From a virus: a DNA stretch of 21,548 bases. This document shows positions 324-13,419 of the stretch, piece by piece. Each line of letters starts with the position of its first letter. Within the stretch, counting starts at the first letter, position 1. Location of the stretch: IMG/VR virus record IMGVR_UViG_3300029448_000223, positions 9,943-31,490 of that record. The stretch is one strand, 5' to 3'. The position numbers and the translations under genes were made by a program. A model generated the notes under the pieces. The model was not told the DNA's origin, did no database searches, and worked only from the letters and a program-made list of their open reading frames with translations.

Positions 324-345
324 TTTTCAATTGAAAATTTTTTTT
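324..345 (+). terminator. Weak AT-rich terminator and/or operator palindrome
   Basis: TTTTCAATTGAAAA at 324-337 is a perfect 14-base palindrome, followed directly by eight T (338-345). Read as RNA it gives a 5-bp stem (UUUUC/GAAAA) with an AAUU loop and a U-tract, a weak intrinsic terminator for the gene ending at 317. The same palindrome lies just upstream of the -7 element at 345-352, so it could also be an operator, for example for the small HTH protein encoded at 618-830. The sequence alone cannot separate these readings. Confidence 0.4.
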
Positions 346-352
346 ATATTTG
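345..352 (+). promoter_or_regulatory. Bacteroidota-type -7 element, leaderless
   Basis: TATATTTG matches TAnnTTTG at all fixed positions. Its last G (352) is followed by four bases and then the ATG at 357, so the predicted transcription start falls on or next to the start codon. No TTG lies at the usual -33 distance; the nearest (331-333) leaves a gap of only 11 bases. Confidence 0.55.
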
Positions 353-356
353 ATTT

Positions 357-614
357 ATGTTATTGAAGAATATTTTAGAGGGTTGGGGAAATTGGACATT
401 AAATCAATTCAAAATACTTGATCCTAATATTGTTCAAATGTCAAAGATGAGATTGCTCATTTGTGATATTTGTGATATTAGAAGTGGTCATATATGCAAC
501 CCAACAAAACAAGGGGTAAATGTTAAAACTAAAGAAATAAAAAACGGTTGTGGTTGTGCAATACCACCTAAGACACTTTCCCCATCTTCTAAATGTCCTT
601 TAGATAAATGGTAA
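357..614 (+). CDS. Small Cys-rich putative zinc-binding protein
   Basis: This 85-aa protein has six cysteines: C36, C39 (CDIC), C47, C65, C67 (GCGC) and C80. The C-terminal part reads GCGCAIPPKTLSPSSKCPLDKW-like, i.e. a GCGC pair followed by a CPLxKW ending. This matches a small, uncharacterised Cys-rich family I recognise from phages of Bacteroidota; the spacing suggests one zinc ribbon or knuckle. Residues 1-30 carry no cysteines. It is the first gene behind the promoter at 345-352 and is read together with the HTH gene that starts 3 bases after its stop. A nine-base tandem repeat (TGTGATATT twice) encodes CDICDI. Metal binding is inferred from the cysteines; the biological role is unknown. 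Confidence 0.75.
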   Translation: MLLKNILEGWGNWTLNQFKILDPNIVQMSKMRLLICDICDIRSGHICNPTKQGVNVKTKEIKNGCGCAIPPKTLSPSSKCPLDKW

Positions 615-617
615 AAT

Positions 618-830
618 ATGGTAAATATAAACACGAATCTCTATAAATTTAAACATGAATTTAGAGATGAATTAGACCGCTTAGGTCTTAAAAAGAAAGA
701 TGTAGCAGAAAAGTTAGAAATGACTATGCCTACACTTAATTCAAAAATTGAAAAACCTTTTACACTTACAATAAAAGATGTTCAAAATTTGAAAGAATTA
801 GAATTTAAATTAGAAACAATAAATATTTAA
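618..830 (+). CDS. Small XRE/Cro-like helix-turn-helix protein
   Basis: This 70-aa protein is almost entirely one helix-turn-helix domain. The first helix lies around residues 9-22, the HTH core is LKKKDVAEKLEMTMPTLNSKI (about 24-44), and a supporting helix follows around 52-62. The pattern 'VAEKLEMTMPTLNSKI' is typical of phage Cro/XRE regulators. It is likely a DNA-binding regulator of the early block. Its stop overlaps the next start by one base (TAATG at 828-832), which suggests translational coupling to the annealing protein gene. A perfect 14-base palindrome at 324-337, upstream of this transcription unit, is a candidate operator, but that link is inference. Confidence 0.7.
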   Translation: MVNINTNLYKFKHEFRDELDRLGLKKKDVAEKLEMTMPTLNSKIEKPFTLTIKDVQNLKELEFKLETINI

Positions 831-1291
831 TGGAATCAATAAAGATTAAAGGTAAGGACTATATACAAGTCCACGAAAGAGTTGCTGAATTAAGGAGAAA
901 TCCTTTATACAAAACTCTTACTATTGAAACTGAAATAGTCGAAAAAAACTATTCAGAACTCACAGGTGATATTGTTAAAAACGATAAAGTTGTTGGTAAA
1001 AAAACAACAAAAGTTTTAGATGCAATTATCATCAAGTGTGTGATTCGTAACAAAGATGGAAATGTTGTTTCATCAGGTTATGCACAAGAAGAAAAAGCTA
1101 CTGGTTTTGTAAACGAAACAAGTTTTGTTGAAAATTGCGAAACATCAGCAGTTGGTCGTGCTTTAGGTTTTCTTGGAATTGGAATTAAAGATTCTATTGC
1201 AAGTGCAGATGAACTTGTTGTTGCTATTAGCAAACAAAAGAAATCTACAACTCAAAATAAAAAAAAAGTTGAACATATAAATCAAATATAA
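830..1291 (+). CDS. Putative single-strand annealing protein (Rad52/ERF-like)
   Basis: 153 aa. The N-terminus has GKDYIQVHERVAELRRNPLY, followed by beta-rich segments (residues 30-90) and the signature ENCETSAVGRALGFLGIGI (101-119), then a Ser/Lys-rich tail. The 'ENCETSAVGRALG...GI' block marks a phage family usually placed near Rad52/ERF single-strand annealing proteins. Such proteins coat ssDNA and pair complementary strands in phage recombination. Context supports this: an SSB-like gene follows after one base and an exonuclease lies just beyond, the classic trio. The family resemblance is from memory of the motif and has not been searched. An alternative is an ssDNA-binding accessory protein without annealing activity. 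Confidence 0.6.
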   Translation: MESIKIKGKDYIQVHERVAELRRNPLYKTLTIETEIVEKNYSELTGDIVKNDKVVGKKTTKVLDAIIIKCVIRNKDGNVVSSGYAQEEKATGFVNETSFVENCETSAVGRALGFLGIGIKDSIASADELVVAISKQKKSTTQNKKKVEHINQI

Positions 1292-1292
1292 T

Positions 1293-1592
1293 ATGGCAAA
1301 TAAAGCTATTTACATAAAAGGAATAAGCATATTCAAACCACATCAAAATGCACCTGACTTTGTAAAAGGTCAAGGATTTATAACACCAAAGGTGTTGGTG
1401 AATTTTGTAAAGGAGAATCCAAACATTTTAACGAGTGAATATGATGGTAACAAACAAATACCTATTCAATTAACCCAAAATGATGATGGTGGACTATCGT
1501 TAAAATTTAACGACTTTGTACCTAATAAAAAGGAAGTCAAAACAGAATCTATACCTGTGAGAGCAGAGCAAGATGATGACTTACCATTCTAA
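1293..1592 (+). CDS. SSB-like single-stranded DNA-binding protein
   Basis: 99 aa. Residues 3-75 are predicted to be beta-rich (IYIKGISIF, GFITPKVLVNFV, IPIQLTQNDDGGLSLKF), compatible with a small OB-fold. The C-terminus ends DDDLPF, nearly identical to the DDDIPF acidic tip through which bacterial SSB recruits partner proteins. The protein is shorter than cellular SSB and its core is not clearly SSB-like by eye, so the assignment rests on the tail and on the context between an annealing protein and an exonuclease. A strong intrinsic terminator begins 3 bases after the stop, so this gene ends a transcript segment. Confidence 0.65.
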   Translation: MANKAIYIKGISIFKPHQNAPDFVKGQGFITPKVLVNFVKENPNILTSEYDGNKQIPIQLTQNDDGGLSLKFNDFVPNKKEVKTESIPVRAEQDDDLPF

Positions 1593-1595
1593 CTT

Positions 1596-1621
1596 AAAGG
1601 GGGTTAATCACCCCCTTTTTT
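1596..1621 (+). terminator. Intrinsic terminator after the SSB-like gene
   Basis: AAAGGGGG (1596-1603), loop TTAATCA, and CCCCCTTT with a T-run to 1621 form a GC-rich hairpin followed by seven T. It lies inside the early block, between the SSB-like gene and the exonuclease genes. No clear TAnnTTTG element follows it. It may therefore act as a partial terminator that reduces downstream expression. Confidence 0.85.
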
Positions 1622-1632
1622 AATACAATATT

Positions 1633-1752
1633 ATGAATGAACATATATTATACAATAATGTAATTGCAAATCTTACAAAGCAATTAGAAGAAAAAGAAAA
1701 AGAAATAAAAGAACTTAAAAATGAAAATAGAAAACTTAGAAGTAAAAAATGA
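1633..1752 (+). CDS. 39-aa coiled-coil micro-protein
   Basis: ATG at 1633 opens a 39-codon frame ending TGA at 1750-1752. Residues 12-37 (IANLTKQLEEKEKEIKELKN and the following ENRKLRSKK) have leucine/isoleucine at heptad positions and dense Lys/Glu, i.e. one coiled-coil helix. It starts 11 bases after the terminator hairpin and its last 32 bases overlap the start of the exonuclease gene in another frame, so translation of the two may be coupled. No family is recognised. It could be a small dimerisation or adaptor peptide, or a leader peptide that helps ribosomes enter the exonuclease gene. Confidence 0.5.
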   Translation: MNEHILYNNVIANLTKQLEEKEKEIKELKNENRKLRSKK

Positions 1753-2515
1753 TAGTATTGAGGAGTACCACTCAAAAGATTCAATTTCAGCAAGTAGTTT
1801 GAAATACATAGCTGAGAAATCAGTTTGGCACTATCTAAATCGCAAACCCATTAAGACAACTAAATTTATGACAAGGGGTAATGCCGTACACACAATTTGT
1901 TATGAGGGAATTGAAGCGTTTAAAAAAGAATATTATGTTCTTCCAAAACTTGATCTAAGAAAAAAAGATGACAAAGAATTAAAAGCAATGTTAATTGAAA
2001 AGAATAAAGGAAAGGTGGCTTTAGATGAAGATGAGGATAATATTATACGAGGAATCCATAAGAACTTTAATAGCAACGACAAGGTTAAAAAATGGACAAA
2101 AGGTAAAATTGAAGTTTCTCATTATGGAACTTATCAAGGCATACCAGTTAGAGTTAGACCTGATTGTATGGGTGATGATTGGATTAGTGATATAAAAACT
2201 TGTCAAGATAGTTCACCTGAAAAGTTTATATATGACATAAAATCAAGAAACTATCATATACAAGCTTGGTTCTACTGCTTTATGTTGGGCATTGATCCAT
2301 CAAGATTTAGATTTATAGCTTGTGAAACAAATCACCCATTTGGTGTTGAGGTCTATAAATTAGATGATGTTTTTATTGAGAACGCAGAAATCGATTTTAA
2401 AAGGGCATTTACCTTTTGGAAACTTTATATAGAAAAGGGTATTCAAACTGGTTATCAATCACAAGATTTTGATGATGATGGTACAATTATTTTAAAAGGT
2501 TGGAAAAAAAGATAA
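1721..2515 (+). CDS. RecE/Cas4-like PD-(D/E)XK exonuclease
   Basis: 264 aa. The motifs of the RecB-family nuclease fold are visible in order: GNAVH with H57; D148 in RVRPDCMGDD; the DIK core (D157, K159); and QAWFY (Q181, Y185), the Q-x3-Y helix typical of RecE/Cas4-type exonucleases. The N-terminus (SISASSLKYIAEKSVWHYL) resembles the phage 'exodeoxyribonuclease VIII-like' family. It likely resects dsDNA ends to give single strands for the annealing protein encoded at 830-1291, with the SSB-like protein protecting them. The start lies within the preceding micro-gene, and its 3' end is followed after 17 bases by the DnaA-IV/VRR-NUC gene. Confidence 0.8.
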   Translation: MKIENLEVKNDSIEEYHSKDSISASSLKYIAEKSVWHYLNRKPIKTTKFMTRGNAVHTICYEGIEAFKKEYYVLPKLDLRKKDDKELKAMLIEKNKGKVALDEDEDNIIRGIHKNFNSNDKVKKWTKGKIEVSHYGTYQGIPVRVRPDCMGDDWISDIKTCQDSSPEKFIYDIKSRNYHIQAWFYCFMLGIDPSRFRFIACETNHPFGVEVYKLDDVFIENAEIDFKRAFTFWKLYIEKGIQTGYQSQDFDDDGTIILKGWKKR

Positions 2516-2532
2516 AATATAAAAATTACAAA

Positions 2533-3207
2533 ATGAAAGATTTAAAGACAATAAAAGGTATAGTAAATGAATACTTTGAGATTAACATATCTAATAAATC
2601 AAGGCAAAGAGAATATGTTGATGCAAGGGGCATTTATTATAATTTATCTCGTGAATTAATACCTGGTGCAACATTTGAAAAGATAGGAAAGTCGGTAAAT
2701 TTAAATCACGCTACGGTGGTTAATGGAATGAAACAATTCAATTTCTTACTTGAATATGATAAACCAACCCAAAATAATTACTTAACTTTAAAGGGTATAT
2801 GTTTAAAAAATATAGATAAATTGGCAAATCCATTTGAAAAATATTTAAGTAAAGAGGATAAGTTGCAACATAGTGTGATTGAATATGTAGGGTTTAATTA
2901 CCCTGATGTTTACATTATACATTGTGCTAACGAGGGAAAAAGAAGTCCTTTTGAAAGATTTAAGTTTAAATATTTAGGTGGCAAGGCAGGCGTTCCTGAT
3001 ATTTTAATATTTAGAGCAGGTGGTAATGGTAGATATGGTCTTGCCATTGAATTAAAAGTTGGATATAATAAGCCAACTGATAATCAAAAAAAAGCATTAG
3101 AAAAATTGAGAAAAGAAAACTGGGAGTGTCATTGGACAAATGACTACGATAAAACTATTGAAATTATAGAACAATATTTATCCAAACCCAACGATGCAGA
3201 AATATAA
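2533..3207 (+). CDS. DnaA domain IV-like / VRR-NUC nuclease fusion
   Basis: 224 aa from the ATG at 2533; an upstream in-frame TTG at 2500 would overlap the previous gene and is less likely. Residues 1-76 resemble DnaA domain IV, the origin-binding HTH: KSRQREYVDARGIYYNLSRE (22-41) followed by FEKIGKSVNLNHATV (48-62), where NHATV stands in for the DHTTV-type recognition signature. No AAA+ ATPase domain is present. Residues about 105-215 form a VRR-NUC nuclease: GVPD (153-156), ELK (173-175) and Q185, matching the G-x-PD...E-x-K...Q pattern of Holliday-junction/flap nucleases. A short linker joins the two. It could bind phage DNA sequence-specifically and nick or resolve structures there. The combined role is inference. 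Its end overlaps the next gene by 14 bases. Confidence 0.75.
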   Translation: MKDLKTIKGIVNEYFEINISNKSRQREYVDARGIYYNLSRELIPGATFEKIGKSVNLNHATVVNGMKQFNFLLEYDKPTQNNYLTLKGICLKNIDKLANPFEKYLSKEDKLQHSVIEYVGFNYPDVYIIHCANEGKRSPFERFKFKYLGGKAGVPDILIFRAGGNGRYGLAIELKVGYNKPTDNQKKALEKLRKENWECHWTNDYDKTIEIIEQYLSKPNDAEI

Positions 3208-3445
3208 GATGGTTTATTGGTCAGAATCTAAACAAAGAATTCGATATACAGTAGTTCATAATTTTGAGGACTTTGAGAATTATGATTATATCGGTGCCTT
3301 AACAAAAGTTGAGTTTGATTTATTAATTGAAGCATTATTTATTAAGTTTCAAGATGAAGAAATTTCATTTGAAGATGTTCAATTGATGTATGATCGATTA
3401 AGAAAGTTTTGTAATGAAATAAAAAACATTACCGAAAACCTATAA
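3194..3445 (+). CDS. Hypothetical protein, 83 aa
   Basis: Starts inside the last codons of the DnaA-IV/VRR-NUC gene (14-base overlap), so the two are probably translated together. Residues 1-27 are basic and polar with several aromatics (MVYWSESKQRIRYTVVHNFEDFENY). Residues 38-80 look like two amphipathic, acidic helices. There is no zinc motif, signal peptide or transmembrane segment. I do not recognise the family. Position in the replication block suggests an accessory protein of replication or recombination, but that is only context. Confidence 0.6.
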   Translation: MQKYKMVYWSESKQRIRYTVVHNFEDFENYDYIGALTKVEFDLLIEALFIKFQDEEISFEDVQLMYDRLRKFCNEIKNITENL

Positions 3446-3452
3446 ACATTAA

Positions 3453-4136
3453 ATGAAAAAAAGCTATTATGCCATCATACCTGCATTTGTCAGATATGAC
3501 CAAACACTAACCCCTAATGCCAAATTATTGTATGGCGAAATTACTGCCCTATGTAATGAAAAAGGTTTTTGTTTTGCAAGAAATAAATATTTTGCTGACC
3601 TATATGGTGTGAAAACAAGATCAATTACTGATTGGATTGCACAATTAAAAACTGCAGGATATATAAAACTTAAAATGACTTATAAAGAAAATTCAAAAGA
3701 AATAGAGAGCCGAGAAATATACATCACAAATTTTCGTGAGGTAGTGAAAAAAAATACACCCCCTATGGAAAATATTCACCAGGATAATATATATAATAAT
3801 ATAAATAATAATACATTAGAATATAAAGAAAAGAAATATTCAGATATGGTTTTAAAATCATTTCAACCTATTTGTGAGTTATTTCCAATTCAAACACAAC
3901 CAAAAACACAAGCAGATAAAAACACTTGGCTTGATTGTATCGATAAACTTGAAAGGTTAGATGGATATTCACCAAGAAAAGTTTATTACATAGTTCAAAA
4001 AGTTAGATTAGATGATTTTTGGAAAAACAATTTTTTAACCATTTTAAAATTAAGAAAGAAAAACAAAGATGGTTTGAAGTACATCAACCTATTCGAAGCC
4101 AAGTTTGGTAAGAATTTAAAACAAATGAATATATGA
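3453..4136 (+). CDS. Winged-helix replication initiator-like protein
   Basis: 227 aa. Residues 5-75 (YYAIIPAFVRYDQTLTPNAK followed by LLYGEITALCNEKGFCFARN and KYFADLYGVKTRSITDWI) are the helix-turn-helix domain common at the N-terminus of phage initiator/DnaD-like proteins. A polar, Asn-rich linker (about 105-125) is followed by a mostly helical C-terminal part (about 130-225). Such proteins bind the phage origin and help load the helicase, here probably the primase-helicase encoded at 4750-6423. The linker is encoded by a 30-base A/T-only stretch, reminiscent of phages whose origin lies inside the initiator gene. The stop overlaps the next start (ATGA at 4133-4136). Other HTH roles cannot be excluded. 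Confidence 0.65.
   Translation: MKKSYYAIIPAFVRYDQTLTPNAKLLYGEITALCNEKGFCFARNKYFADLYGVKTRSITDWIAQLKTAGYIKLKMTYKENSKEIESREIYITNFREVVKKNTPPMENIHQDNIYNNINNNTLEYKEKKYSDMVLKSFQPICELFPIQTQPKTQADKNTWLDCIDKLERLDGYSPRKVYYIVQKVRLDDFWKNNFLTILKLRKKNKDGLKYINLFEAKFGKNLKQMNI
3770..3842 (+). other. Candidate replication origin / DNA-unwinding element
   Basis: Within the initiator-like gene, 3784-3813 contains only A and T. It is flanked by two copies of AAATATTCA (3770-3778 and 3834-3842) in the same orientation. An AT-only tract with flanking repeats inside an initiator gene recalls origins of lambda-like phages. The whole genome is AT-rich and only two short repeats are present, so this is a weak candidate. 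Confidence 0.2.
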
Positions 4137-4438
4137 GTAAAAAGAATAAACATCAAATAAGAAAAGAACAACCTGTTTTTTCAGGAGTTCTAAAATACTT
4201 TCCTAAAGCTATTAAATATGTTTCTAAAGTAAGCTACATTGGAAATGAACAACACAATCCAGGAACACCACTTCATTGGGATAGAGAAAAATCAAAAGAT
4301 GAATTAGATGCTTGTGTAAGACATCTTATAGATCATACAGAAGAACCAATAGATGATGATGGACTTTTACATCTTGGTAAAGCTGCTTGGAGAACACTTG
4401 GTGCATTGGAGAAATTTTTAGAACAAGAAGATGAATAA
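4133..4438 (+). CDS. dATP/dGTP diphosphohydrolase-like protein (DUF5664/MazZ-type)
   Basis: 101 aa. The sequence carries the hallmarks of the small phage family called dATP/dGTP diphosphohydrolase N-terminal domain: KYFPKAIKYVSKVSYIGN (21-38), H41-NPG, LHWDREKSKDELDA (47-60), HLIDH (64-68), a DDDG stretch (74-77) and H80-LGKAAWR. Several His/Asp/Glu residues are placed for metal binding on a helical bundle. Relatives hydrolyse purine dNTPs to dNMP and pyrophosphate; the best-known one, MazZ, supplies the 2-aminoadenine pathway. No PurZ-like gene is present in this window, so DNA modification cannot be concluded. It overlaps its neighbours by 4 and 8 bases, in line with nucleotide metabolism inside the replication operon. 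Confidence 0.7.
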   Translation: MSKKNKHQIRKEQPVFSGVLKYFPKAIKYVSKVSYIGNEQHNPGTPLHWDREKSKDELDACVRHLIDHTEEPIDDDGLLHLGKAAWRTLGALEKFLEQEDE

Positions 4439-4760
4439 ATCACTTGTAAAAGAATTAAAAGTAAAAGCTGAATCTACTGCTGAAAAATTCTCCATTAGTA
4501 AAAGAGAAGGAAACTTTAACAATGAAATATTTAAGGTACTTGAAATAATTCCAATGTCCGATCATACTGCAACTGTTATAATGAAAAAAAATACTGGTAA
4601 AAAAGCTGCATTCTTTTTTTATTATCTCAATCGTGGAATGTCAAAGGGTTGGCATTATTTTGTACCAACTGATTCGCATATTTTAGGTATGCAATCATTT
4701 AATTTTTATAAATTAGAAGTTGAAAGGAATAATTATAAAGAAAACTTTAATGAAAGATAA
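4431..4760 (+). CDS. Hypothetical protein, 109 aa, in the replication operon
   Basis: The protein has a basic N-terminal helix (residues 2-25) and then beta-rich, aromatic-rich segments: IFKVLEIIPMSDHTATVIMK (33-52) and AFFFYYLNRGMSKGWHYFVP (60-79), ending in a short charged helix. There is no transmembrane segment of convincing length and no catalytic motif that I recognise. It overlaps the gene before by 8 bases and the primase-helicase by 11, so it is embedded in the replication operon and probably co-expressed with it. Its compact beta-rich pattern would fit a small DNA- or nucleotide-binding domain; this is a guess. Confidence 0.6.
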   Translation: MNKSLVKELKVKAESTAEKFSISKREGNFNNEIFKVLEIIPMSDHTATVIMKKNTGKKAAFFFYYLNRGMSKGWHYFVPTDSHILGMQSFNFYKLEVERNNYKENFNER

Positions 4761-6423
4761 ATTTTTAGAATTTGGAATTGACATTGGTTTTAAAACTGGT
4801 GAGTTCCACACTACTTGTCCAAAGTGCAGTAGTACAAGAAAAAAGAAAACCGAAAGGTGCTTATCCATAAATGAACCAAAAGGTTTATTCAACTGTCATC
4901 ATTGTGGATATAGTGGTAATGTAAATCTTCAACAAAAGAAAGATTATGTAAGACCAATAGAGGTAAATGCTGATTTATCAGAGAAAACTTTAAAGTGGTT
5001 TGCTAAAAGAGGTATATCCGAAACCACAATAGTAAATTGGAAAATTACTGAATCTACAGAGTATTTTCCACAAGTCAAAAAGGAAAGAATAGCAATCAAC
5101 TTTAATTACTATCGTGAAAAACAATTAATAAATATCAAATATCGTGATGGTCAAAAGAATTTTAAGCTATTTAAAGATGCTGAATTAATCTTTTATGGTC
5201 TTGACAATATCAAAGAAATGGAAAAGATTTACATTGTTGAGGGCGAAATAGATGCTTTGTCTTTACACGAAGCAGGTCTTTATAGTGTTTGTTCAGTTCC
5301 TAATGGTGCATCTAAAGGATCACAACGATTAGAGTATCTTGATAATTGTTGGGAATACTTTGTAGATAAAACCGAGATTATATTATGCACAGATAACGAC
5401 CAAGCAGGATTATCACTTCGAGGTGAACTTGCAAGAAGATTTGGACAAGGTAGATGTAAGTATGTAGAATTTGGCGATTATAAAGATGCTAACGACATAT
5501 TAATCAACAAAGGTGCAAGTGAACTTCGAGAAGTTGTTAGTAAAGCAAAGAACTTTCCGATTGAAGGTGTACTAAATATTAACGATATTTGGGATAGTGT
5601 TTTAAACTTTAATGAGAATGGAATCAAGAATTATAATGTGCGATTGGGAAACTCTAATGAGTATTATAACATTAGCTTCGGAGAATGGACTGTATGCACA
5701 GGGATTCCCAATGCAGGAAAGTCCGATGTCATCGACCAAATATGTGTTAATCTTGCATTACAAGAAGATTTTCGAGTAGCAATGTTTTCACCTGAAAGCT
5801 ACCCTTATGAATCGCATATTAAAAGGTTAGCGAATAAGGTAAATGAGAAAGAATGTACCACCCAAGATTTAAACAATACAAAAGATTTTATTGAGGAACA
5901 CTTTTTCTTTGTTCGAATAGACATCGAAAACTTAACCCTAAAAGGCATTTTAGATGCTTTTAAGCAACTTGTATTCCAAAAAGGTGTAAATATATGTGTG
6001 ATTGATCCATATAATATGTTAGACCATTCTGCTCAACGAGATTTCACTTATGTTGGAAAACTACTATCTGAGATTACACAGTTCTGCCAACAAACAAACA
6101 CCCATTTGTTTTTAGTAGCACACCCAAGAAAGATGGAAAGTGTTGATGGAAAATATAGAGTCCCCAACCCCTATGATATTTCTCAATCAAGCGACTTTTT
6201 TAACAAGGCATATAACTGTATTACTGTTTATCGTAATCTTGGACAAAAAACTATTTACGGAAGTGATAGTGTACAAGTATATGTTCAAAAGGTTAAGAGA
6301 AAAGAAAATGGCAAACAAGGCGATTTTATGGTTGCACCTGACTTTCAAAATGGGGGTGTTTATAAAGAAATAGATAAGGACATTCAAAGGTTTGAAGTAA
6401 TAAAAGATAATATACCTTTTTAA
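4750..6423 (+). CDS. TOPRIM primase-helicase (T7 gp4 / Twinkle-like)
   Basis: 557 aa from the ATG at 4750; an in-frame TTG at 4720 lies inside the previous gene and is not preferred. An N-terminal zinc ribbon has C23, C26, C49 and C52 (CPKC...CHHC). The TOPRIM catalytic parts follow: YIVEGEIDAL (E164, D168) and CTDNDQAG (D215, D217). The C-terminal RecA-fold helicase has GIPNAGKS (318-325, Walker A), E349 in FSPES (catalytic Glu position), CVIDPYN (D419, Walker B) and FLVAHPRK (H458). It should unwind the fork 5'-3' and synthesise primers. This is the bifunctional layout of T7 gp4, so no separate DnaG-type primase is needed. No DNA polymerase gene is in the window. Confidence 0.93.
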   Translation: MKDKFLEFGIDIGFKTGEFHTTCPKCSSTRKKKTERCLSINEPKGLFNCHHCGYSGNVNLQQKKDYVRPIEVNADLSEKTLKWFAKRGISETTIVNWKITESTEYFPQVKKERIAINFNYYREKQLINIKYRDGQKNFKLFKDAELIFYGLDNIKEMEKIYIVEGEIDALSLHEAGLYSVCSVPNGASKGSQRLEYLDNCWEYFVDKTEIILCTDNDQAGLSLRGELARRFGQGRCKYVEFGDYKDANDILINKGASELREVVSKAKNFPIEGVLNINDIWDSVLNFNENGIKNYNVRLGNSNEYYNISFGEWTVCTGIPNAGKSDVIDQICVNLALQEDFRVAMFSPESYPYESHIKRLANKVNEKECTTQDLNNTKDFIEEHFFFVRIDIENLTLKGILDAFKQLVFQKGVNICVIDPYNMLDHSAQRDFTYVGKLLSEITQFCQQTNTHLFLVAHPRKMESVDGKYRVPNPYDISQSSDFFNKAYNCITVYRNLGQKTIYGSDSVQVYVQKVKRKENGKQGDFMVAPDFQNGGVYKEIDKDIQRFEVIKDNIPF

Positions 6424-6433: not shown

Positions 6434-7588
6434 ATGAAACAAAAAATAAATATTGCAAAAATAAAATCAAATAAAAATAATCCAAGATTTATAAACGACT
6501 CTAAATTTAAAAGGTTAGTAAAATCTATTGAGGAGTTTCCTGAAATGTTAGAAAAACGACCAATAGTGGTAGATGAAAATTTTATTGTTCTTGGTGGTAA
6601 TATGCGATTAAAAGCGTGTAAAAAAGCAGGACTTAAAGAAATTTGGATTGACCAAGTTCTTGATTGGAGTGAAGAAAAGAAAAATGAATTTATAATAAAA
6701 GATAATTCAGGTTTTGGTGAGTGGGATTGGGATATATTATTAAACGAATGGGAAGCAAAAGATTTATATGATTGGGGATTAGATATTCCTGAAATACCTC
6801 TTGAAGATATAGAAGCTGAAGAAGATAATTATGAGGAGCCTGAAGAACTACAAGTTGATGTTGTTTTAGGCGATTTAATAGAAATAGGCGAACATAGGCT
6901 TTTATGTGGAGATAGTACTGATGTAACACAGGTAGAAAAACTAATGAATGGTAAGAAAGCTGATATGGTGTTTACAGACCCACCTTATGGAGTAAATTAT
7001 CAATCCAATATGAGAACTAAATCACAAAAATTTGATGTGTTGGAAAATGACAATGTTTTTATAACTGAATGGATAAATAATTTACCATTATTTTCAAAAG
7101 GATTTGTATTTGTTTGGACAAGTTGGAAAGTCTTAAAACAATGGATTGAATTTTGCGAACATATAGGAGAACTTTCTAATTTAATTATTTGGAATAAAGG
7201 AGGAGGTGGAATTGGAGATTTAAAAAAAACATTTTCTACTGATTTTGAAGTTGCATTAGTTTATCATAGGGGGGCAGAAATAAAAGGTAAAAGACTTGGT
7301 AGTGTTTGGAGCATTGGTAAAGATGGGAGTACAAAATATTTACACCCAACACAAAAACCAATTGAATTAGCTGCAATGGCGATTGAAAATGTTTCAACAA
7401 TAAACAATTTAGTTTTAGATTTATTTCTTGGTTCTGGCTCAACAATGGTAGCAGCACACCAATTAAAGCGTAAATGCTATGGAATGGAACTTGACCCTAA
7501 ATATTGTCAAGTAATAATTGACAGAATGCAAAAACTTGACCCTGACCTTGAAATAAAAATTAATAATAAAGTATATTTAAAAAACTAA
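6434..7588 (+). CDS. ParB-like domain / DNA methyltransferase fusion
   Basis: 384 aa. Residues 1-120 form a ParB/sulfiredoxin-like domain: KSNKNNPRFI, then VVDENFIVLGGNMRLKACKK (45-64) with the GGNMR loop in the place of the ParB GxxR motif. Residues 140-384 are an N6-adenine/N4-cytosine methyltransferase: GDSTDV (159-164), motif IV DPPYG (182-186), HPTQKP (304-309) and SAM-binding motif I LDLFLGSGST (328-337) followed by the acidic ELDP. Motif IV precedes motif I, the order of beta-type enzymes. This fusion is common in phages and prophages and probably methylates phage DNA, for example against host restriction. The specificity cannot be read. It starts 11 bases after the helicase gene and ends the early block. 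No restriction partner is next to it. Confidence 0.9.
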   Translation: MKQKINIAKIKSNKNNPRFINDSKFKRLVKSIEEFPEMLEKRPIVVDENFIVLGGNMRLKACKKAGLKEIWIDQVLDWSEEKKNEFIIKDNSGFGEWDWDILLNEWEAKDLYDWGLDIPEIPLEDIEAEEDNYEEPEELQVDVVLGDLIEIGEHRLLCGDSTDVTQVEKLMNGKKADMVFTDPPYGVNYQSNMRTKSQKFDVLENDNVFITEWINNLPLFSKGFVFVWTSWKVLKQWIEFCEHIGELSNLIIWNKGGGGIGDLKKTFSTDFEVALVYHRGAEIKGKRLGSVWSIGKDGSTKYLHPTQKPIELAAMAIENVSTINNLVLDLFLGSGSTMVAAHQLKRKCYGMELDPKYCQVIIDRMQKLDPDLEIKINNKVYLKN

Positions 7589-7644: not shown

Positions 7645-7672
7645 AACGAGGTTTTGTTAGTTTCCTCGTTTT
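7645..7672 (+). terminator. Hairpin after the methyltransferase gene (weak terminator)
   Basis: AACGAGG (7645-7651) pairs with CCTCGTT (7664-7670) around a 12-base loop and is followed by TTTT. The U-tract is short, so termination may be partial. The loop contains the TTG at 7654-7656 that serves as -33 element of the next promoter, so terminator and promoter share the same DNA. Confidence 0.6.
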
Positions 7673-7682
7673 AATACCTTTG
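7654..7682 (+). promoter_or_regulatory. Promoter TTG-N18-TACCTTTG, leaderless
   Basis: TTG at 7654-7656, an 18-base spacer and TACCTTTG at 7675-7682 fit the Bacteroidota housekeeping promoter (TTTG at -33, TAnnTTTG at -7). This is the best complete promoter in the window. The final G is followed by four bases and the ATG at 7687, which predicts a leaderless transcript. Confidence 0.75.
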
Positions 7683-7686
7683 TAAT

Positions 7687-7860
7687 ATGTTTGATGTTAA
7701 CATATCGGTTATGAGGGGTTTTGGGATAGGTTTTAACTACTCTAATGAAGATATTGAGGGATTGGAATATATAGCCGATGATCTACGACACACCATACAA
7801 ATTATCTTTTTCTTTGTAATAATCAACATAAATTACTATACTCCTAACGAAGAAGAATAA
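7687..7860 (+). CDS. 57-aa hypothetical protein with its own promoter
   Basis: ATG at 7687, TAA at 7858-7860. The N-terminal half is glycine- and aromatic-containing (MRGFGIGFNYS), the middle is acidic (NEDIEGLEYIADDLRH), and residues 37-49 (IQIIFFFVIININ) form a short hydrophobic stretch followed by an acidic tail (NEEE). The stretch is too short for a sure transmembrane helix but could attach to a membrane. The case for a real gene is the exact promoter just upstream with a four-base gap to the ATG, together with an isolated position between the early operon and the winged-helix gene. No family is recognised. A single-gene unit with its own promoter suggests a regulatory, anti-host or anti-defence peptide, but that is speculation. 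Confidence 0.6.
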   Translation: MFDVNISVMRGFGIGFNYSNEDIEGLEYIADDLRHTIQIIFFFVIININYYTPNEEE

Positions 7861-7959: not shown

Positions 7960-7990
7960 TAAAAACTAATAATAACTAAAAAAAATTAAA

Positions 7991-8317: not shown

Positions 8318-8343
8318 TAACCTTAAATCATTGTTTTAAAATT

Positions 8344-8370
8344 AACCCACTTTAATCGGTGGGTTTTTTT
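8344..8370 (+). terminator. Intrinsic terminator before the packaging genes
   Basis: AACCCAC (8344-8350) pairs with GTGGGTT (8359-8365) around an 8-base loop, and a run of seven T (8364-8370) follows. It ends the winged-helix transcript. Only three bases separate it from the promoter element at 8374-8381. Confidence 0.85.
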
Positions 8371-8373
8371 ATG

Positions 8374-8381
8374 TATTTTTG
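8374..8381 (+). promoter_or_regulatory. -7 element for the late block, leaderless at a GTG
   Basis: TATTTTTG at 8374-8381 fits TAnnTTTG exactly. Four bases later GTG (8386) opens the terminase small subunit frame. No TTG is seen at the -33 distance, which lies in the terminator hairpin. The element decides the start of TerS: any start further upstream would lie at or above the promoter. Confidence 0.6.
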
Positions 8382-8385
8382 TTAT

Positions 8386-8829
8386 GTGAAAACCAACAAA
8401 AAGCAACATACTAAAAAAGCAATTCTTGAAGCATTAGAAAAATCTTTGGGAGTTGTTACAACTGCTTGTAAGAAAGTGAGTATCAATAGAAGTACCTTTT
8501 ACAAGTATCTAAAAGAAGATGAGGAGTTTGCAAAGCAAGTAAAAGATATTGAGAACATAGCACTTGATTTTGCTGAATCACAACTACACAAACAAATAAG
8601 TGAGGGCAATACTACTGCAACAATATTCCTTTTAAAGACAAAAGGTAAATCTCGTGGTTATGTCGAAAGAAGCGAGATAGTACACGACAATCAAATTAAA
8701 TCAACCATTATAGAATGGACACCACCAAGAAAGTTAAGCAAAAATGTAATAGACAATTCTACGACCTTATCCGATCAAACAAAAGATTCAAAATCCACCA
8801 AGGAGGCACACGAAGCGGAAAAACTGTAG
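8386..8829 (+). CDS. terS: Terminase small subunit
   Basis: 147 aa from GTG 8386. Residues 6-45 contain a homeodomain-like HTH (KKAILEALEKSLGVVTTACK, then SINRSTFYKYLKEDEEF) typical of phage small terminases that recognise the packaging site. A helical segment (50-95, ALDFAESQLHKQISEGNTTA...) fits the oligomerisation core and ends with KTKGKSRGYVER. The tail (110-147) is polar and Ser/Lys-rich. Upstream in-frame starts (GTG 8359 inside the terminator, ATG 8371 before the -7 element) would lie outside the predicted mRNA. The last 115 bases overlap the large subunit gene in another frame. TerS binds the concatemer and hands it to TerL. Confidence 0.85.
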   Translation: MKTNKKQHTKKAILEALEKSLGVVTTACKKVSINRSTFYKYLKEDEEFAKQVKDIENIALDFAESQLHKQISEGNTTATIFLLKTKGKSRGYVERSEIVHDNQIKSTIIEWTPPRKLSKNVIDNSTTLSDQTKDSKSTKEAHEAEKL

Positions 8830-9899
8830 CCGTTTGTCAATACCTGGTTTATTTACTTACATCATCAGAGAAACCTTTGACTATCTCTATTGTTCGTAAA
8901 ACATTACCTGCATTGCGTGGAAGTGTTATGCGTGATATAATGATAGTGCTACAAGAAACAGGTATCTACTATTCAGGTGTGCATAATAAAGCTGATAACA
9001 CTTTTAAATATAATAACCACCTAATCGAGTTTCTTTCAGTAGATGAACCCCAAAAGATTCGTGGCCGTAAAAGAAACATTGCATTTCTTAATGAGGGAAA
9101 TGAACTTACAATAGAAGATTTTAGACAAATCAATATGAGAACTACCGATATGGTTATTGTTGATTTTAACCCATCAGATCCTGTCCATTGGTTATATAGC
9201 GACTTAATACCAAGAGATGATTGCGATACTTGGATAACTACTTACAAAGACAATAACTTTTTATCTGATGAGCTTATACACGAGATTGAAAGAATGAAAG
9301 AGCGTGATCCTGATTACTGGAGAGTATATGGAGAAGGATTACAAGCAATCTTTAGTGCAAGACAAATATTTAACAACTGGACTTTTATTGATTATAAAGA
9401 TTTTCCTGAATTTGATTTAGAGGTAGAAGGGATTGTAGGAATTGATTATGGTTATAGCAATGATCCAACTGCTTGTGTTCTTGTCTTTAAAAAGCACGAT
9501 AGGGTTTACTTGCACGAGATACTTTACCAAAAGGGTTTAACTAATAGCGACATTGTAGATATACTAAAAGCTAAAGGGTATGGCGAGGTAATTACTTACG
9601 CTGATTCTGCTGAACCCAAATCTATTGAGGAGATGAGAAGATTAGGACTATATATAAAACCTGCGACTAAAGGGCAAGGAAGTATTAATGCAGGAATATC
9701 AAAACTAAAAGAGTTTGACATTTATGTTAGTAATGAATCCAAGAATATTTTAAGAGAATATCAGAGTTATTATTGGCAAGAATTAAAAGATGGAACTATA
9801 ATAAATAAGCCACAAGACAAAGAAAATCACCTTATGGATTCTATTCGTTATGCCGTATATTCTTCCTTTGGAAAGAAAGAAAACTTTTTTGTAATTTAA
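8715..9899 (+). CDS. terL: Terminase large subunit
   Basis: 394 aa, ATPase plus nuclease motor of DNA packaging. GGTRSGKT (30-37) is the Walker A loop; IAFLNE (122-127) is Walker B with catalytic E127; IVDFNPSDP (148-156) is probably the coupling region. The RNase H-like nuclease domain has D244 (GIDYGYSND), D297 (YADSAEP) and D375 (HLMDSIRYA) as the metal-binding acidic triad. The sequence is of the PBSX/Terminase_3 type, consistent in length. The P-loop is encoded at about 8802-8825, which is still inside the TerS frame, so the long overlap is real and not a start-prediction error. A promoter at 9904 separates it from the portal gene. Confidence 0.95.
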   Translation: MDTTKKVKQKCNRQFYDLIRSNKRFKIHQGGTRSGKTVAVCQYLVYLLTSSEKPLTISIVRKTLPALRGSVMRDIMIVLQETGIYYSGVHNKADNTFKYNNHLIEFLSVDEPQKIRGRKRNIAFLNEGNELTIEDFRQINMRTTDMVIVDFNPSDPVHWLYSDLIPRDDCDTWITTYKDNNFLSDELIHEIERMKERDPDYWRVYGEGLQAIFSARQIFNNWTFIDYKDFPEFDLEVEGIVGIDYGYSNDPTACVLVFKKHDRVYLHEILYQKGLTNSDIVDILKAKGYGEVITYADSAEPKSIEEMRRLGLYIKPATKGQGSINAGISKLKEFDIYVSNESKNILREYQSYYWQELKDGTIINKPQDKENHLMDSIRYAVYSSFGKKENFFVI

Positions 9900-9903
9900 T
9901 TAG

Positions 9904-9911
9904 TATTTTTG
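9904..9911 (+). promoter_or_regulatory. -7 element before the portal gene
   Basis: TATTTTTG matches TAnnTTTG exactly, in the 30-base gap after TerL. The ATG follows 18 bases later, so a leader of about 14 bases is expected, unlike the leaderless sites. A TTG at 9889-9891 is too close (12-base gap) to be a standard -33 element. Confidence 0.45.
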
Positions 9912-9929
9912 TAAAATAAAAGTTATTCG

Positions 9930-11834
9930 ATGGCGTCAATATTATCAAGAGTTAGAAATTTGATTTCTAAAAACTTTCAGCAAACAAGTCAAGAGTTCAA
10001 CAGAGCAATCTACAATTATTTAGGAAACACTATAATTTGGAATCCTGAAAACGATAATACTTACATTGAAAAAGGTTATCAATACAATACAACTATTTAT
10101 TCAATAGTAAACTTAATTGCTAAAACGGCAGCTACTATTCCTTTTCAAGTATATGAGATTAAAAACGAGAATGAGTTAAAGAGATACAAAGCAATGACAA
10201 GTGGTGTTGCTAATGGTTCAGCATTACACAAAGCAGAGGTGTTAAGAAAACACGCTCTTGAAGAAGTGGCAGATACTGAATTGCACGATTTACTTTCAAG
10301 ACCAAATCCATCACAATCTTATAATGCTTGGATTCAAGAGATTATAGCTTTTGGTAAACTAACTGGTAATCGTTACATATATGGTTTAAAACCTGAAACA
10401 GGTGCTAATCAAGGTAAATTCAAAGAATTATATGTTTTACCAAGTCAAAAGGTTGAAATAAATAGTGGTGGGATATTTGAGCCAGTTAAATCATACTCAT
10501 TAGAGTATAATGGTCAATATAAGATGGAAGCTGAAGATATTTGCCACATTAAAGATTTTAACCCTTACTATGATGGTACTGGAAGTCATTTATACGGAAT
10601 GTCTCCACTTAAAGCAGGTTTAAGATCATTAGACACTAACAATGAAGCAATAACAACTGGTGCAAAGTATTTACAGAACCAAACTGCAAGAGGTGTGCTT
10701 ATGAGTGATGAGGGAGATATTAACGAAGTACAAGCACAACAACTAAAAGAAAAGTTTAGACAAAACTATTCAGGTTCTAATAATGCAGGAGATATTGTAA
10801 TAACACCAAAGAAACTTTCTTGGATTAACTTTGGAATGTCTGCATCTGATTTATCTCTTATAGAACAATACAATGCAAGTATCAAAGACTTATGCAATAT
10901 TTATTCTGTACCTGCAGTTTTATTAAACAATACAGAATCTTCTACATACAACAATGTAATTGAAGCTAAAAAGACATTGTATCAAAATGCAGTAATCCCT
11001 GAACTAAACAAAATCAAAGATGAGTTAAACAGATGGTTAGTACCTGCTTATGGTGAAAAACTATACATTGACTTTGATTATACAAGTATTTCTGAAATGC
11101 AAGAGGAGATGGATAAGGTTGTAAGTCAAATGAGCCAATCTTGGTGGCTTACTCCTAATGAGAAAAGACAAGCGATGAGTTATGGTGTTGAAGCTGACAA
11201 TGAAAAACTTAACGATTACTATATTCCTGCGAATCTTATGCCATTACAAGATGAAGTGATTGTTGATGATTTTAAAAGTGTTAAAGTAAATTATGATGAA
11301 TTACTTGATGTTAAAAGAGAAATAAGACAAGATGTTTTTACAACTGCATCACAAGCAACACAAAGAGCAGAACAACTTGGTTGTTCGGGTATTCATTCAC
11401 ACGATGAAAATGGCAATGCTATTTATATGCCGTGTGCTTCACACGATGATTATATAGCGATTATTGGACAAGATGTTAAAGATGATAAACAAGAGATAAT
11501 TCAAAAACAAGATTCTTACACTAATTATCCACAAGGTGCAACTAACAATGCTAAAAGAATGTTAGAATGGAGAGAAAAATATGGTCGTGATGTTGTCAAG
11601 GGTGGTACAAAAGTTGGTTGGAAACGAGCAAATCAACTTGCTAATAGAGAACCAATATCACTTGATACTGTAAAAAGAATCAATAGCTTTTTAGCAAGAC
11701 ACGAGGATAATGCAAAAATATCTGAGGATTATAGAAACGAACCTTATAAAGACAAAGGGTATGTTGCTTATAATCTTTGGGGTGGTAAAGCGATGATTTC
11801 TTGGGCAAAAAGGATTTCTCAAAATGCTGACTAA
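9930..11834 (+). CDS. HK97-type portal protein with C-terminal extension
   Basis: 634 aa; typical HK97-family portals are about 400-450. Residues 1-450 match the portal: YSIVNLIAKTAATIPFQVYE (about 51-70), LLSRPNPSQSYNAWIQ, YVLPSQKVEI, IKDFNPYYDGTG, GMSPLKAG, and YNASIKDLCNIYSVPAVLLN. It forms the dodecameric ring for DNA entry and tail attachment. Residues about 470-510 are an added module with GCSGIHSHDENG...YMPC, and about 531-634 are a second module (YPQGATNNAKRMLEWREKYG...GWKRANQLANRE...WGGKAMISWAKRI). Both resemble segments found at the ends of structural proteins in marine phages; their role is not known. The stop overlaps the next gene by 11 bases. Confidence 0.92.
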   Translation: MASILSRVRNLISKNFQQTSQEFNRAIYNYLGNTIIWNPENDNTYIEKGYQYNTTIYSIVNLIAKTAATIPFQVYEIKNENELKRYKAMTSGVANGSALHKAEVLRKHALEEVADTELHDLLSRPNPSQSYNAWIQEIIAFGKLTGNRYIYGLKPETGANQGKFKELYVLPSQKVEINSGGIFEPVKSYSLEYNGQYKMEAEDICHIKDFNPYYDGTGSHLYGMSPLKAGLRSLDTNNEAITTGAKYLQNQTARGVLMSDEGDINEVQAQQLKEKFRQNYSGSNNAGDIVITPKKLSWINFGMSASDLSLIEQYNASIKDLCNIYSVPAVLLNNTESSTYNNVIEAKKTLYQNAVIPELNKIKDELNRWLVPAYGEKLYIDFDYTSISEMQEEMDKVVSQMSQSWWLTPNEKRQAMSYGVEADNEKLNDYYIPANLMPLQDEVIVDDFKSVKVNYDELLDVKREIRQDVFTTASQATQRAEQLGCSGIHSHDENGNAIYMPCASHDDYIAIIGQDVKDDKQEIIQKQDSYTNYPQGATNNAKRMLEWREKYGRDVVKGGTKVGWKRANQLANREPISLDTVKRINSFLARHEDNAKISEDYRNEPYKDKGYVAYNLWGGKAMISWAKRISQNAD

Positions 11835-12699
11835 AAAATTCAAAAAAAACTATCATAAGGATTGGTTAAATCAATTAGATATTGAGGAAACCAAACAAGA
11901 TAAAAAATGGACAAAATATCTTGTTGGTCAAAGCAATAATATAATTGATGAATTTCTTAAATCCAATAAACAAATTCCAAACTTAGATTTTAAATTTAAA
12001 CAAAGCGATATTACAAAACTTTATGTAGAGCTTTATCAAGAGGTGGGTAATAAGTTTGCCAAGTGGTATTCGTTAAACTTTGAAAAATACATTACTAAAA
12101 ACACTCATCTCGATTATCAAGAGATATGGAATGAGAAGTTTGCTTATATAGGAAGTCAAGTATCAGGTGCAAGAGTTGTTAGTGTTAGTGGTAATCGTAA
12201 GAAAGAATTTGTTAGAGTTCTAAAAACATATATGTCAGATCCTGACTTTCAATCAATGAATGAGGTACAAGCAGGAAGAATATTGCGAAAGAAGTTTAAA
12301 AATATGTCGGTTAATAATGCAAAACGAATTGTAAGAACCGAAAGTGTTAATGCTGCTAACTATGCTACTAATCAAAGTGCTACTGATATTTTTGGTAAAG
12401 AGAATCTACAAAAAGAGTGGATAGCTACTTTTGATAGTAGAACAAGAATAGATCATATAGAAGCCAATGGACAAGTAGTTGATATGGATAAAAACTTTTT
12501 AGTTGGGGGTGAAGAATTAAGTTATCCAGGTGATAGTAGAGGAAGTGCTGCCAATGTCATTAATTGTAGGTGTACCAATGCACCTTTTCCAAAAGAACTT
12601 GAAGAAAATTATAGTTCAGGTGGTGTTATAGAAAATGTTATAGCAGTAGGAACTATTGCAGTTGTTAGTGATTCGCTACAAGAAAATGAAAACAATTAA
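11824..12699 (+). CDS. Mu F-like / SPP1 gp7-like head morphogenesis protein
   Basis: 291 aa. The N-terminal two thirds are helical. The family signature spans about residues 160-255: NNAKRIVRTESVNAANYATN (the RTE-x4-A block), EWIATFDSRTRIDHIEANGQ, a hydrophobic YPGDSRGSAANVINCRCT ending with the CRC motif typical of 'Mu protein F-like' minor head proteins. These proteins sit inside or at the portal vertex and assist head assembly or DNA ejection. It directly follows the portal with overlapping ends, as in many siphophages. The last 40 residues are a low-complexity tail. The leaderless promoter for the protease lies just after its stop. Confidence 0.85.
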   Translation: MLTKKFKKNYHKDWLNQLDIEETKQDKKWTKYLVGQSNNIIDEFLKSNKQIPNLDFKFKQSDITKLYVELYQEVGNKFAKWYSLNFEKYITKNTHLDYQEIWNEKFAYIGSQVSGARVVSVSGNRKKEFVRVLKTYMSDPDFQSMNEVQAGRILRKKFKNMSVNNAKRIVRTESVNAANYATNQSATDIFGKENLQKEWIATFDSRTRIDHIEANGQVVDMDKNFLVGGEELSYPGDSRGSAANVINCRCTNAPFPKELEENYSSGGVIENVIAVGTIAVVSDSLQENENN

Positions 12700-12705
12700 A
12701 ATTAA

Positions 12706-12713
12706 TATCTTTG
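12706..12713 (+). promoter_or_regulatory. -7 element for protease and capsid genes, leaderless
   Basis: TATCTTTG fits TAnnTTTG exactly; four bases (TAAA) separate it from the ATG at 12718. It lies in an 18-base gap inside the head operon. It would provide extra transcription of the protease and of the major capsid gene. No TTG is visible at -33. Confidence 0.6.
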
Positions 12714-12717
12714 TAAA

Positions 12718-13419
12718 ATGGAAAATATAATATATAAGTCAAGCCCAATCGGTGAATTAATTGATGCCGATGAAAAGTCAGGAATCGTAAAAGGTTATGG
12801 TTCAGTATTTAATAATGTTGATAGCGATGGTGATATAATAACACCAGGTGCATATACAAAAACGATTATGGAGAATGGAAATCGTGTTAAGTATTTATAT
12901 CAACACAATATGGATCAACCATTAGGTAAAATGGTAAACCTATATGAAGATGATAAAGGATTAATGTTTGAAGCGAAGATTCCTAAAACACAACTTGGTT
13001 CTGATGTATTAGAACTTATGAAAGCAGGGGTAATTACCGAAAATAGTGTTGGTATATTACCACTTCAGAAAGAAGCAGGAATTGGTGATAACTATAATAG
13101 AAAACTTACAGAGGTAAAACTTTATGAGATTTCTGCCGTTACACTTGCTGCAAATGATGAAGCGATGATATTAGATGTAAAGGGGAATGTAGATAAGGAG
13201 AAAGTATTGAAAAGATTTGATAAACTTGTGAAGTTAATTCGCAAGGGTAACATTTCTGACAATATGGGTTATGCTATTGAAGCAGAACTCATCAAGCTAA
13301 AATCAATTTTTAACGATAGTGCCACTCTGCCAACAGATATTGATGTTACAGAGCCGACAGAGATTAAATCAGACAATAGCGAAATCTATAAATATTTGTT
13401 TAATAAATTAAATTCGTAA
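12718..13419 (+). CDS. HK97-type prohead protease (S78 family)
   Basis: 233 aa. Beta-rich N-terminal domain: GIVKGYGSVFNNVDSDGDII (22-41), a known start of the herpesvirus-like serine protease fold. Candidate catalytic residues are H63 (LYQHN), S110 (ITENSVGI) and an acidic residue near E137 (VKLYEISAVTLAAN). The C-terminal part (150-233) is helical and charged, probably a scaffold-interacting or self-cleaved tail. It digests the delta domain of the capsid protein and itself during prohead maturation. Gene order (Mu F-like, protease, capsid) is the usual one, and the capsid gene starts 3 bases after its stop. Confidence 0.92.
   Translation: MENIIYKSSPIGELIDADEKSGIVKGYGSVFNNVDSDGDIITPGAYTKTIMENGNRVKYLYQHNMDQPLGKMVNLYEDDKGLMFEAKIPKTQLGSDVLELMKAGVITENSVGILPLQKEAGIGDNYNRKLTEVKLYEISAVTLAANDEAMILDVKGNVDKEKVLKRFDKLVKLIRKGNISDNMGYAIEAELIKLKSIFNDSATLPTDIDVTEPTEIKSDNSEIYKYLFNKLNS

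Follow-up and report, generated by a model that had tools for sequence, protein, structure and literature searches.

A promoter element that ends only four bases upstream from a start codon raises the question of where the messenger RNA (mRNA) of that gene begins. This arrangement recurs in a virus record from IMG/VR (IMGVR_UViG_3300029448_000223; 31,490 bases), of which bases 9943–31490 (21,548 nucleotides (nt), hereafter the window) were analyzed; the remaining 9.9 kb are referred to as L082. The element has the form TAnnTTTG, that of the Bacteroidota -7 element, and the gap is the number of nt between its end and the start codon. A preliminary description of the window had reported four such elements with a gap of exactly 4 (to ATG 357, ATG 7687, GTG 8386 and ATG 12718) and a fifth site (15254–15261) with a gap of 5 to GTG 15267, and all five positions were found to be correct. 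It had also proposed that the corresponding mRNAs begin at the start codon, a proposal that is now supported by the spacing, by its conservation in orthologues and by the published distance between element and transcription start (PMC6847099). The four-base spacing is confirmed as real and far above chance. We consider it very likely, from the sequence data, that the gap-4 genes are transcribed from the Bacteroidota -7 element as leaderless mRNAs, and that a separate class of promoters gives rise to short leaders.

Element-to-start spacing

The motif was scored as TAHHTTTG followed by an in-frame ATG or GTG. The preliminary description had cautioned that TAnnTTTG is by itself common by chance, and we found no enrichment (35 occurrences on both strands of the window vs 40.8 in shuffled sequences). 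The signal is the element-to-start spacing, not motif abundance. In the record itself we scored 44 start positions (38 in the window, picked by hand, and six in L082); two of them, 2534 and 14878, were scored one base off, and neither has a nearby element. TAHHTTTG was found at gap 4 for six of the 44 starts and at gaps 15–20 for six more. When the 45 nt preceding each start were dinucleotide-shuffled 2,000 times, the mean number at gap 4 was 0.044 and the maximum at any single gap was 2.

The analysis was extended to a clade set, which consisted of the best 80 of 243 loci from a TerL search of viral contigs and the best 80 of at least 488 loci from a protease search, 74 of these 80 being new. 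With the window and L082, the set comprised 156 loci from 144 records (1.65 Mb); duplicate sequences were removed before counting, and related records are non-independent in all clade counts. Genes were called by a simple longest-open reading frame (ORF) rule. The 257 distinct TAHHTTTG matches were distributed as 107 at gaps 2–6, none at gaps 7–12, 133 at gaps 13–24 and 17 farther away. The preliminary description had predicted a spacing peak in relatives over a control, and a sharp peak was indeed obtained at gap 4, with 95 matches vs two at gap 3 and five at gap 5. As control motifs we used the 29 remaining permutations of the six fixed letters; these gave 18 of 1,744 matches at gap 4, with no more than four for any motif. 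When all 1,089 distinct TAHHTTTG sites on both strands were considered, the same 95 lay at gap 4 from ATGs opening at least 50 codons, and only nine, inside a flat spread, lay at gap 4 from ATGs that did not open 50 codons. A chance origin, the motif being common in AT-rich DNA, could appeal to the 35 sites in the window, though these are fewer than expected; as no peak was found in shuffles, permuted motifs or non-gene ATGs, this explanation of the spacing was rejected, and we give it a negligible probability.

The consensus of 44 sequence-non-redundant promoters was TAHHTTTG-TAAT-ATG. The element is of the sigma-A type, with few G residues at the two middle positions (TAHHTTTG 158, TAGHTTTG 1 and TAHGTTTG 10 in 82 clade sources). 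No conserved upstream TTTG column corresponding to a -33 element was found in the 44 leaderless promoters; this element is also weak in Flavobacterium johnsoniae according to PMC6847099, and is hence not required. We also considered whether TAHHTTTA at gaps 10–11 (36 clade matches) represents an intermediate class, and rejected it: 17 of these matches arise from a Met codon inside the protease gene, six to an 84-aa ORF family and three to the Cys-containing gene, in which a TTTA form overlaps the true element, and the others are scattered. The largest TAHHTTTA family consists of relatives of the 57-aa gene, mostly at gap 14 or 20. The empty zone at gaps 7–12 holds for TAHHTTTG in this clade only.

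Three comparison sets were scored, namely hattifnatt-like Flavobacterium phages (80 loci), Fpv-like phages (10 loci) and Bacteroides phages (two loci). The hattifnatt-like set had 34 of 133 matches at gaps 4–5 (21 at gap 4) and six at gaps 7–12; its control motifs gave 16 of 950 at gap 4, up to seven per motif, and the peak there stands out less. Three of 25 matches in the Fpv-like set lay at gaps 4–5 and three at gaps 10–12, and the two Bacteroides phage loci had one of eight matches, at gap 5. The trait thus extends beyond this clade, with varying strength.

The virus very probably infects a host of the phylum Bacteroidota, as suggested by its best 60 TerL matches among 1,437 phage records, which were Bacteroides or Phocaeicola phages and two faecal phage records (37–39% identity). 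A scan of genome contigs returned two loci, neither of them from Bacteroidota, and there was no Bacteroidota sequence among the 30 listed of the 2,035 rows of a plasmid search. A sigma-70 region 2 domain (PF04542) was not found in the record itself.

Gap classes among orthologues

Orthologue gaps were tallied once per record with an assignable start, a per-locus tally counting 11 contigs twice through overlapping scans. The prohead protease was the most constant gene, with gap 4 in 112 of 119 records and gap 13 in the other seven. For TerS, TAHHTTTG was found at a gap of exactly 4 in 61 of 79 records. Those TerS genes of the first scan that possess an element fell into six groups with less than 80% identity, all with gap 4 and with visibly different upstream DNA. 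The 57-aa gene had gaps of 3–5 in 33 of 61 records and of 13–16 in the other 28; the protease and 57-aa genes outside gaps 3–5 thus sit at 13–16, with no values between. The gene for the PD-(D/E)XK protein (15267) carried TAHHTTTA/G at gaps 4–5 in 44 of 75 records and a weaker form at these gaps in 18; nine of the remaining records had gap 15, one had gap 22 and three lacked an element. The Cys-containing gene was represented by 13 records, with the TTTG form at gaps 4 (one record), 5 (two) and 6 (three), the TTTA form at gaps 5 (five) and 9 (one), and one weak element.

Other genes belong to the longer-gap group. The portal gene had a gap of 17–24 in all 103 records, and ORF 18665 a gap of 16–18 in 22 of 36, the other 14 lacking an element. 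Neither TerL nor the major capsid protein (MCP) gene had an element of its own (79 of 79 and 45 of 45 loci, first scan plus window). The earlier suggestion that leaderless transcription is a general strategy of this phage is therefore upheld in part: several genes stand at gap 4, but the portal and other genes stand at 13–24, and MCP and TerL lack their own element.

A different element was seen in 13 distant TerS records (e.g., L078 and L079), which have TACATTGA-like sequences 6–7 nt before the ATG. These resemble the SM5 box of Flavobacterium psychrophilum, given as TAnnTTGY in PMC9723704, and may possibly be read by another sigma factor.

Proposed leaderless and short-leader promoters

In F. 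johnsoniae, the distance from the element (T-12 to G-5) to the transcription start is 4 or 5 nt by RNA-seq, and the same study revised the consensus to TAHHTTTG (PMC6847099). When the gap is 4, +1 would thus coincide with the initial base of the start codon, and the predicted +1 is the A of an ATG in 91% of cases. We propose that TAnnTTTG is recognized as a -7 element by the host primary sigma factor, presumably as in Flavobacterium, and that RNA polymerase would begin 4–5 nt past it, the first transcribed base falling on the start codon or within 1–2 nt. At gaps 3, 5 and 6 the position of +1 would be uncertain by 1 nt either way. The genes predicted to be leaderless are those encoding the protease, TerS, the 57-aa protein, the Cys-containing 85-aa protein, the PD-(D/E)XK protein (15267) and the tape measure protein, together with L082:8932. 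The leaderless interpretation is well supported by the sequence data, most strongly for the protease and 57-aa genes.

The second class of promoters, 13–24 nt before the start, would yield a leader of about 9–20 nt, just enough to hold an A-rich signal. In F. johnsoniae, good translation is associated with A-rich sequence between -14 and -11 (PMC6847099), and in the clade an A was found at -12 in 84% of leadered starts and 63% of operon-internal starts. Leaderless mRNAs would lack this signal, located 11–14 nt upstream at other phage starts, and their translation would presumably be initiated by the leaderless route. The empty zone at gaps 7–12 may indicate that a leader is either at least about 9 nt long, to hold the A-rich signal, or absent.

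Start codons and alternative explanations

In the window, no possible start precedes the codons at 357, 7687 and 12718 in their frames. This is not the case for GTG 8386, with GTG 8359 and ATG 8371 upstream, or for GTG 15267, with TTG 15213 upstream. When the frame was followed upstream in distinct sequences, a stop was reached before any start in 66 of 66 protease, 23 of 27 57-aa, 25 of 32 PD-(D/E)XK and 10 of 10 Cys-containing genes, the window's 15267 being among the PD-(D/E)XK exceptions; for TerS the value was 20 of 39. With any codon allowed at gap 4, these 39 TerS sequences always had a start codon at this position (20 ATG and 19 GTG). Several families had ATG in all distinct sequences (protease, 66; 57-aa, 27; Cys-containing, 10; portal, 42; ORF 18665, 17), and GTG was found in one of 49 leadered starts in a wider sample. 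The leaderless-type PD-(D/E)XK genes (exact TTTG/TTTA, gap of 6 or less) had 25 GTG and seven ATG in 32 distinct sequences, and 19 of the 25 GTG cases lacked an upstream in-frame start before a stop. GUG on a leaderless mRNA is a poor start in Escherichia coli and a better one in Mycobacterium smegmatis, according to PMC9031893. In alignments with the window proteins (identity of 53–76% for TerS, 65–73% for the protease and 27–96% for the 57-aa protein), the residues near the first codon were kept in the protease and the 57-aa protein, and less so in TerS.

Several observations weigh against the leaderless interpretation. The 18 TerS records without the exact arrangement comprise one with TAHHTTTA at gap 3, 14 with a weaker element (11 at gap 6, two at gap 7 and one at gap 17) and three with none, and the Cys-containing gene is at gap 4 in this record only. 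All 19 distinct GTG-type TerS sequences, including that of the window, carry a further in-frame ATG, which lies five codons upstream and immediately precedes the element, so TerS provides no firm evidence for GTG starts. In six distinct PD-(D/E)XK sequences a TTTA element is followed at gap 6 by ACC or ACG, and the real start of these genes must lie elsewhere. The alignments were built from translations starting at the codons in question and are uninformative on the sequence upstream. At leaderless-type starts, the value of 0% A at -12 is forced by the position of the element, and is compatible with the leaderless interpretation without proving it. For genes inside operons, read-through mRNA may provide a further template for translation. 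The leaderless assignment is a prediction made from the sequence and the published start-site distance.

An element at gap 4 might also be a translation or regulator signal within a longer read-through mRNA, rather than a promoter starting at the codon. Such an mRNA is conceivable, as the protease promoter and some TerS promoters lie inside or just behind a same-strand upstream gene. However, the same 8-mer is found 13–24 nt before other genes, which is unexpected for a translation signal, the bases of the element agree with those of the mapped Flavobacterium promoter (PMC6847099), and terminator-like hairpins lie directly before 21 of 97 leaderless-type elements, so that transcription should restart there; we therefore regard this possibility as very unlikely. 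A start site located 5 nt or more past the element, or variable in position, would often cut the AUG; translation would then truly begin at an ATG farther downstream, and the mRNA would be leadered. Start sites at both 4 and 5 nt in F. johnsoniae (PMC6847099) and the existence of gaps 3, 5 and 6 are in line with this scenario. It is nevertheless highly improbable, given the conserved residues next to the first codon of the protease and the 57-aa protein, the lack of any downstream in-frame ATG before codon 9 in the 57-aa gene, and the coincidence of +1 with the A of ATG in the proportion of cases reported above.

The TerS of the window deserves separate consideration. It could start at ATG 8371 on an mRNA reading through the terminator, with the GTG as an ordinary valine codon, and the GTG-type TerS would then not be leaderless. 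The in-frame ATG in 19 of 19 distinct GTG-type sequences speaks for this alternative, but ATG 8371 lies upstream from the element and behind the terminator hairpin. Furthermore, all 19 have GTG rather than another valine codon at gap 4, and the other 19 distinct TAHHTTTG-type TerS sequences have ATG at the same place. An ATG before the element is also present where TAATTTTG gives ATG-TAA, a dead start (three distinct cases). This alternative thus appears unlikely, and GTG 8386 is favoured as the start of the window TerS, with its mRNA predicted to be leaderless. With the first listed ATG as its start, TerL shares 115 bases (8715–8829) with the 3' end of TerS.

Terminator-like hairpins upstream from the promoters

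A hairpin with a T-tract was found just upstream from 21 of 97 leaderless, 27 of 121 leadered (13–24) and none of 15 other clade promoters. Base-composition shuffles gave expectations of 0.15, 1.05 and 0.05, respectively, but these are too low, as such shuffles break T-runs, and the comparison with control motifs from terminator sites is a better control. The corresponding values were 14 of 41, nine of 43 and one of 41 in the hattifnatt-like set, and zero of three, zero of two and one of 17 in the Fpv-like set. Putative stop-and-restart arrangements occur in both promoter classes. In the window, three promoters come directly after such a hairpin with a T-tract, and a fourth after a weaker hairpin (Table 1).

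An initial terminator scan with loose criteria yielded 881 sites, mostly coding as judged from examples, and was superseded by a stricter one. Of the 289 terminator-like sites of the clade, 104 had TAHHTTTG or TAHHTTTA no more than 40 nt away, and 80 of these 104 elements started 7–10 nt past the first T of the T-tract. At distances of 6–14, the true motif was found 88 times vs 63 for five control motifs combined in the clade, 31 vs 16 in the hattifnatt-like set and four vs five in the Fpv-like set. The T-tract spans about -20 to -14 relative to the transcription start, and F. johnsoniae promoters have an AT-rich motif around -18 (PMC6847099). One sequence may serve as both the terminator T-tract and the AT-rich part of the promoter, in a compact stop-and-restart unit. 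These phages might also keep the leaderless class for gene dosage, with a leaderless first gene (GTG in some families) made sparingly and the next gene on the same mRNA, which has an ordinary upstream context, made in bulk (protease/MCP, TerS/TerL), but we propose this only as a speculative idea, and a rather doubtful one.

Features of the record

The elements, genes and hairpins of the window are listed in Table 1. The preliminary description had overlooked the exact elements before the portal gene (gap 18), a 37-codon ORF (gap 15) and ORF 18665 (gap 16), and the window accordingly holds the leadered class too. Two further gap-4 genes lie outside the window, the tape measure protein gene L082:3069 and the unassigned gene L082:8932. 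In addition, the region 6434–7588 of the window encodes a weak ParB-like N-terminal domain (below the Pfam cut-off) fused to an N6/N4 DNA methylase domain.

Table 1. Promoter elements, associated genes and hairpins in the window; leaderless-type and leadered are predicted classes.
Feature	Coordinates	Strand	Gap, match or folding
-7 element TATATTTG	345..352	+	gap 4 to ATG 357
85-aa Cys-containing protein gene, leaderless-type	357..614	+	weak PHROG 13558 match
Hairpin (7 pairs, 12-nt loop) with short T tail, just before promoter of 57-aa gene	7645..7670	+	-8.2 kcal/mol, z -2.5
-7 element TACCTTTG	7675..7682	+	gap 4 to ATG 7687
57-aa protein gene, leaderless-type	7687..7860	+	no family match
Terminator hairpin and T-tract joined to TerS promoter; includes ATG 8371 in TerS frame	8344..8373	+	-12.3 kcal/mol, z -4.1
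-7 element TATTTTTG	8374..8381	+	gap 4 to GTG 8386
Terminase small subunit (TerS), from GTG 8386; alternative start ATG 8371	8386..8829	+	PHROG 309 E 4.8e-11; alignment
-7 element TATTTTTG of portal gene	9904..9911	+	gap 18, leadered class
Portal protein, leadered	9930..11834	+	PF04860 E 4.4e-61
-7 element TATCTTTG	12706..12713	+	gap 4 to ATG 12718
Prohead protease (Peptidase_S78), leaderless-type	12718..13419	+	PF04586 E 5.9e-30; alignment
MCP, gene after protease, without own element	13423..14628	+	PHROG 10
Terminator hairpin and T-tract joined to promoter of 15267 gene	15222..15253	+	-11.9 kcal/mol, z -5.2
Variant -7 element TAACTTTA	15254..15261	+	gap 5 to GTG 15267
PD-(D/E)XK endonuclease-like protein, GTG start, leaderless-type	15267..15629	+	PF11645 E 3.3e-13
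Terminator hairpin and T-tract joined to leadered promoter (37-codon ORF)	15658..15692	+	hairpin scan, folding
-7 element TATTTTTG	15693..15700	+	gap 15 to ATG 15716 (37-codon ORF)
-7 element TATTTTTG	18641..18648	+	gap 16 to ATG 18665, leadered

Comparison with known systems

No report of leaderless mRNAs or of a fixed promoter-to-start spacing in Bacteroidota phages was found among the papers listed by searches of mainly non-subscription literature. According to PMC3160421, leaderless genes were detected in one of 37 Bacteroidetes/Chlorobi genomes, and only Pribnow-like promoters were sought, so a TAnnTTTG leaderless class would escape such a search. It is an open question how the ribosomes of Bacteroidota select a start codon in the absence of Shine-Dalgarno pairing, and in the hosts mapped to date few mRNAs are leaderless. 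In this phage group, the protease and TerS have stayed leaderless-type over wide divergence, which offers natural paired tests, with leaderless and short-leader genes in the same genome and with the same promoter. The spacing rule also constitutes a simple promoter finder for uncultured Bacteroidota phages, and flags gene starts that should be corrected.

The TerS of Flavobacterium phage 11b (AJ842011.2) provides an example of such a correction. A hairpin (weak by folding, z -1.3), a T-tract, TATCTTTG and 4 nt precede an ATG at 4930, and the hattifnatt9-1 homologue aligns with TerS from the first residue at this position. The gene is annotated from TTG 4858, upstream from the promoter (L253:1033-1105, corresponding to 4858–4930), and this annotation is probably 24 codons too long. 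The same phage has a second case, the gene at 21116, with a T-tract, TATATTTG and a gap of 5. Phage 11b differs from the phage studied here in that its TerS is of the hattifnatt-like group and its protease start lacks such an element. In P2559Y, TATTTTTA is found at gap 3 before TerS, and a hypothetical gene of phage 1/32 (11038) has an element at gap 4. The exact arrangement was not seen at TerS or the protease, where these were in view, in Fpv8, BT2, phi12:1, phi10:1, Arctus_1, 1/32, tooticki9-1 and hattifnatt9-1.

The promoters described here resemble the primary-sigma promoters of F. johnsoniae, F. psychrophilum and Bacteroides thetaiotaomicron in their element, in the expected distance to the transcription start and in the AT-rich sequence at about -18 (PMC6847099). 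They differ in the proportion of leaderless-type genes. In F. johnsoniae, the leader is longer than 10 nt in 87% of the transcripts that have a probable promoter (PMC6847099), F. psychrophilum has 5.5% leaderless mRNAs (PMC9723704), and about 3.7% have a leader of less than 10 nt in B. thetaiotaomicron (PMC7366714). The mapped hosts are thus mostly leadered, whereas six of 12 start-proximal elements in the record itself and 107 of 257 in the clade are leaderless-type; this comparison is rough, as it rests on published maps of transcription start sites for the hosts and on sequence for the phages. The repressor gene cI of phage lambda, counted among leaderless mRNAs in PMC9031893, shares with the genes described here a start codon at the mRNA 5' end (a prediction in our case). 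In contrast to lambda cI, packaging and structural genes (TerS, protease, tape measure) are among those concerned, and the spacing is conserved in relatives. The leaderless genes of actinobacteria are similar in that GTG starts are permitted (PMC9031893), and differ in phylum, in promoter and in being non-phage genes.

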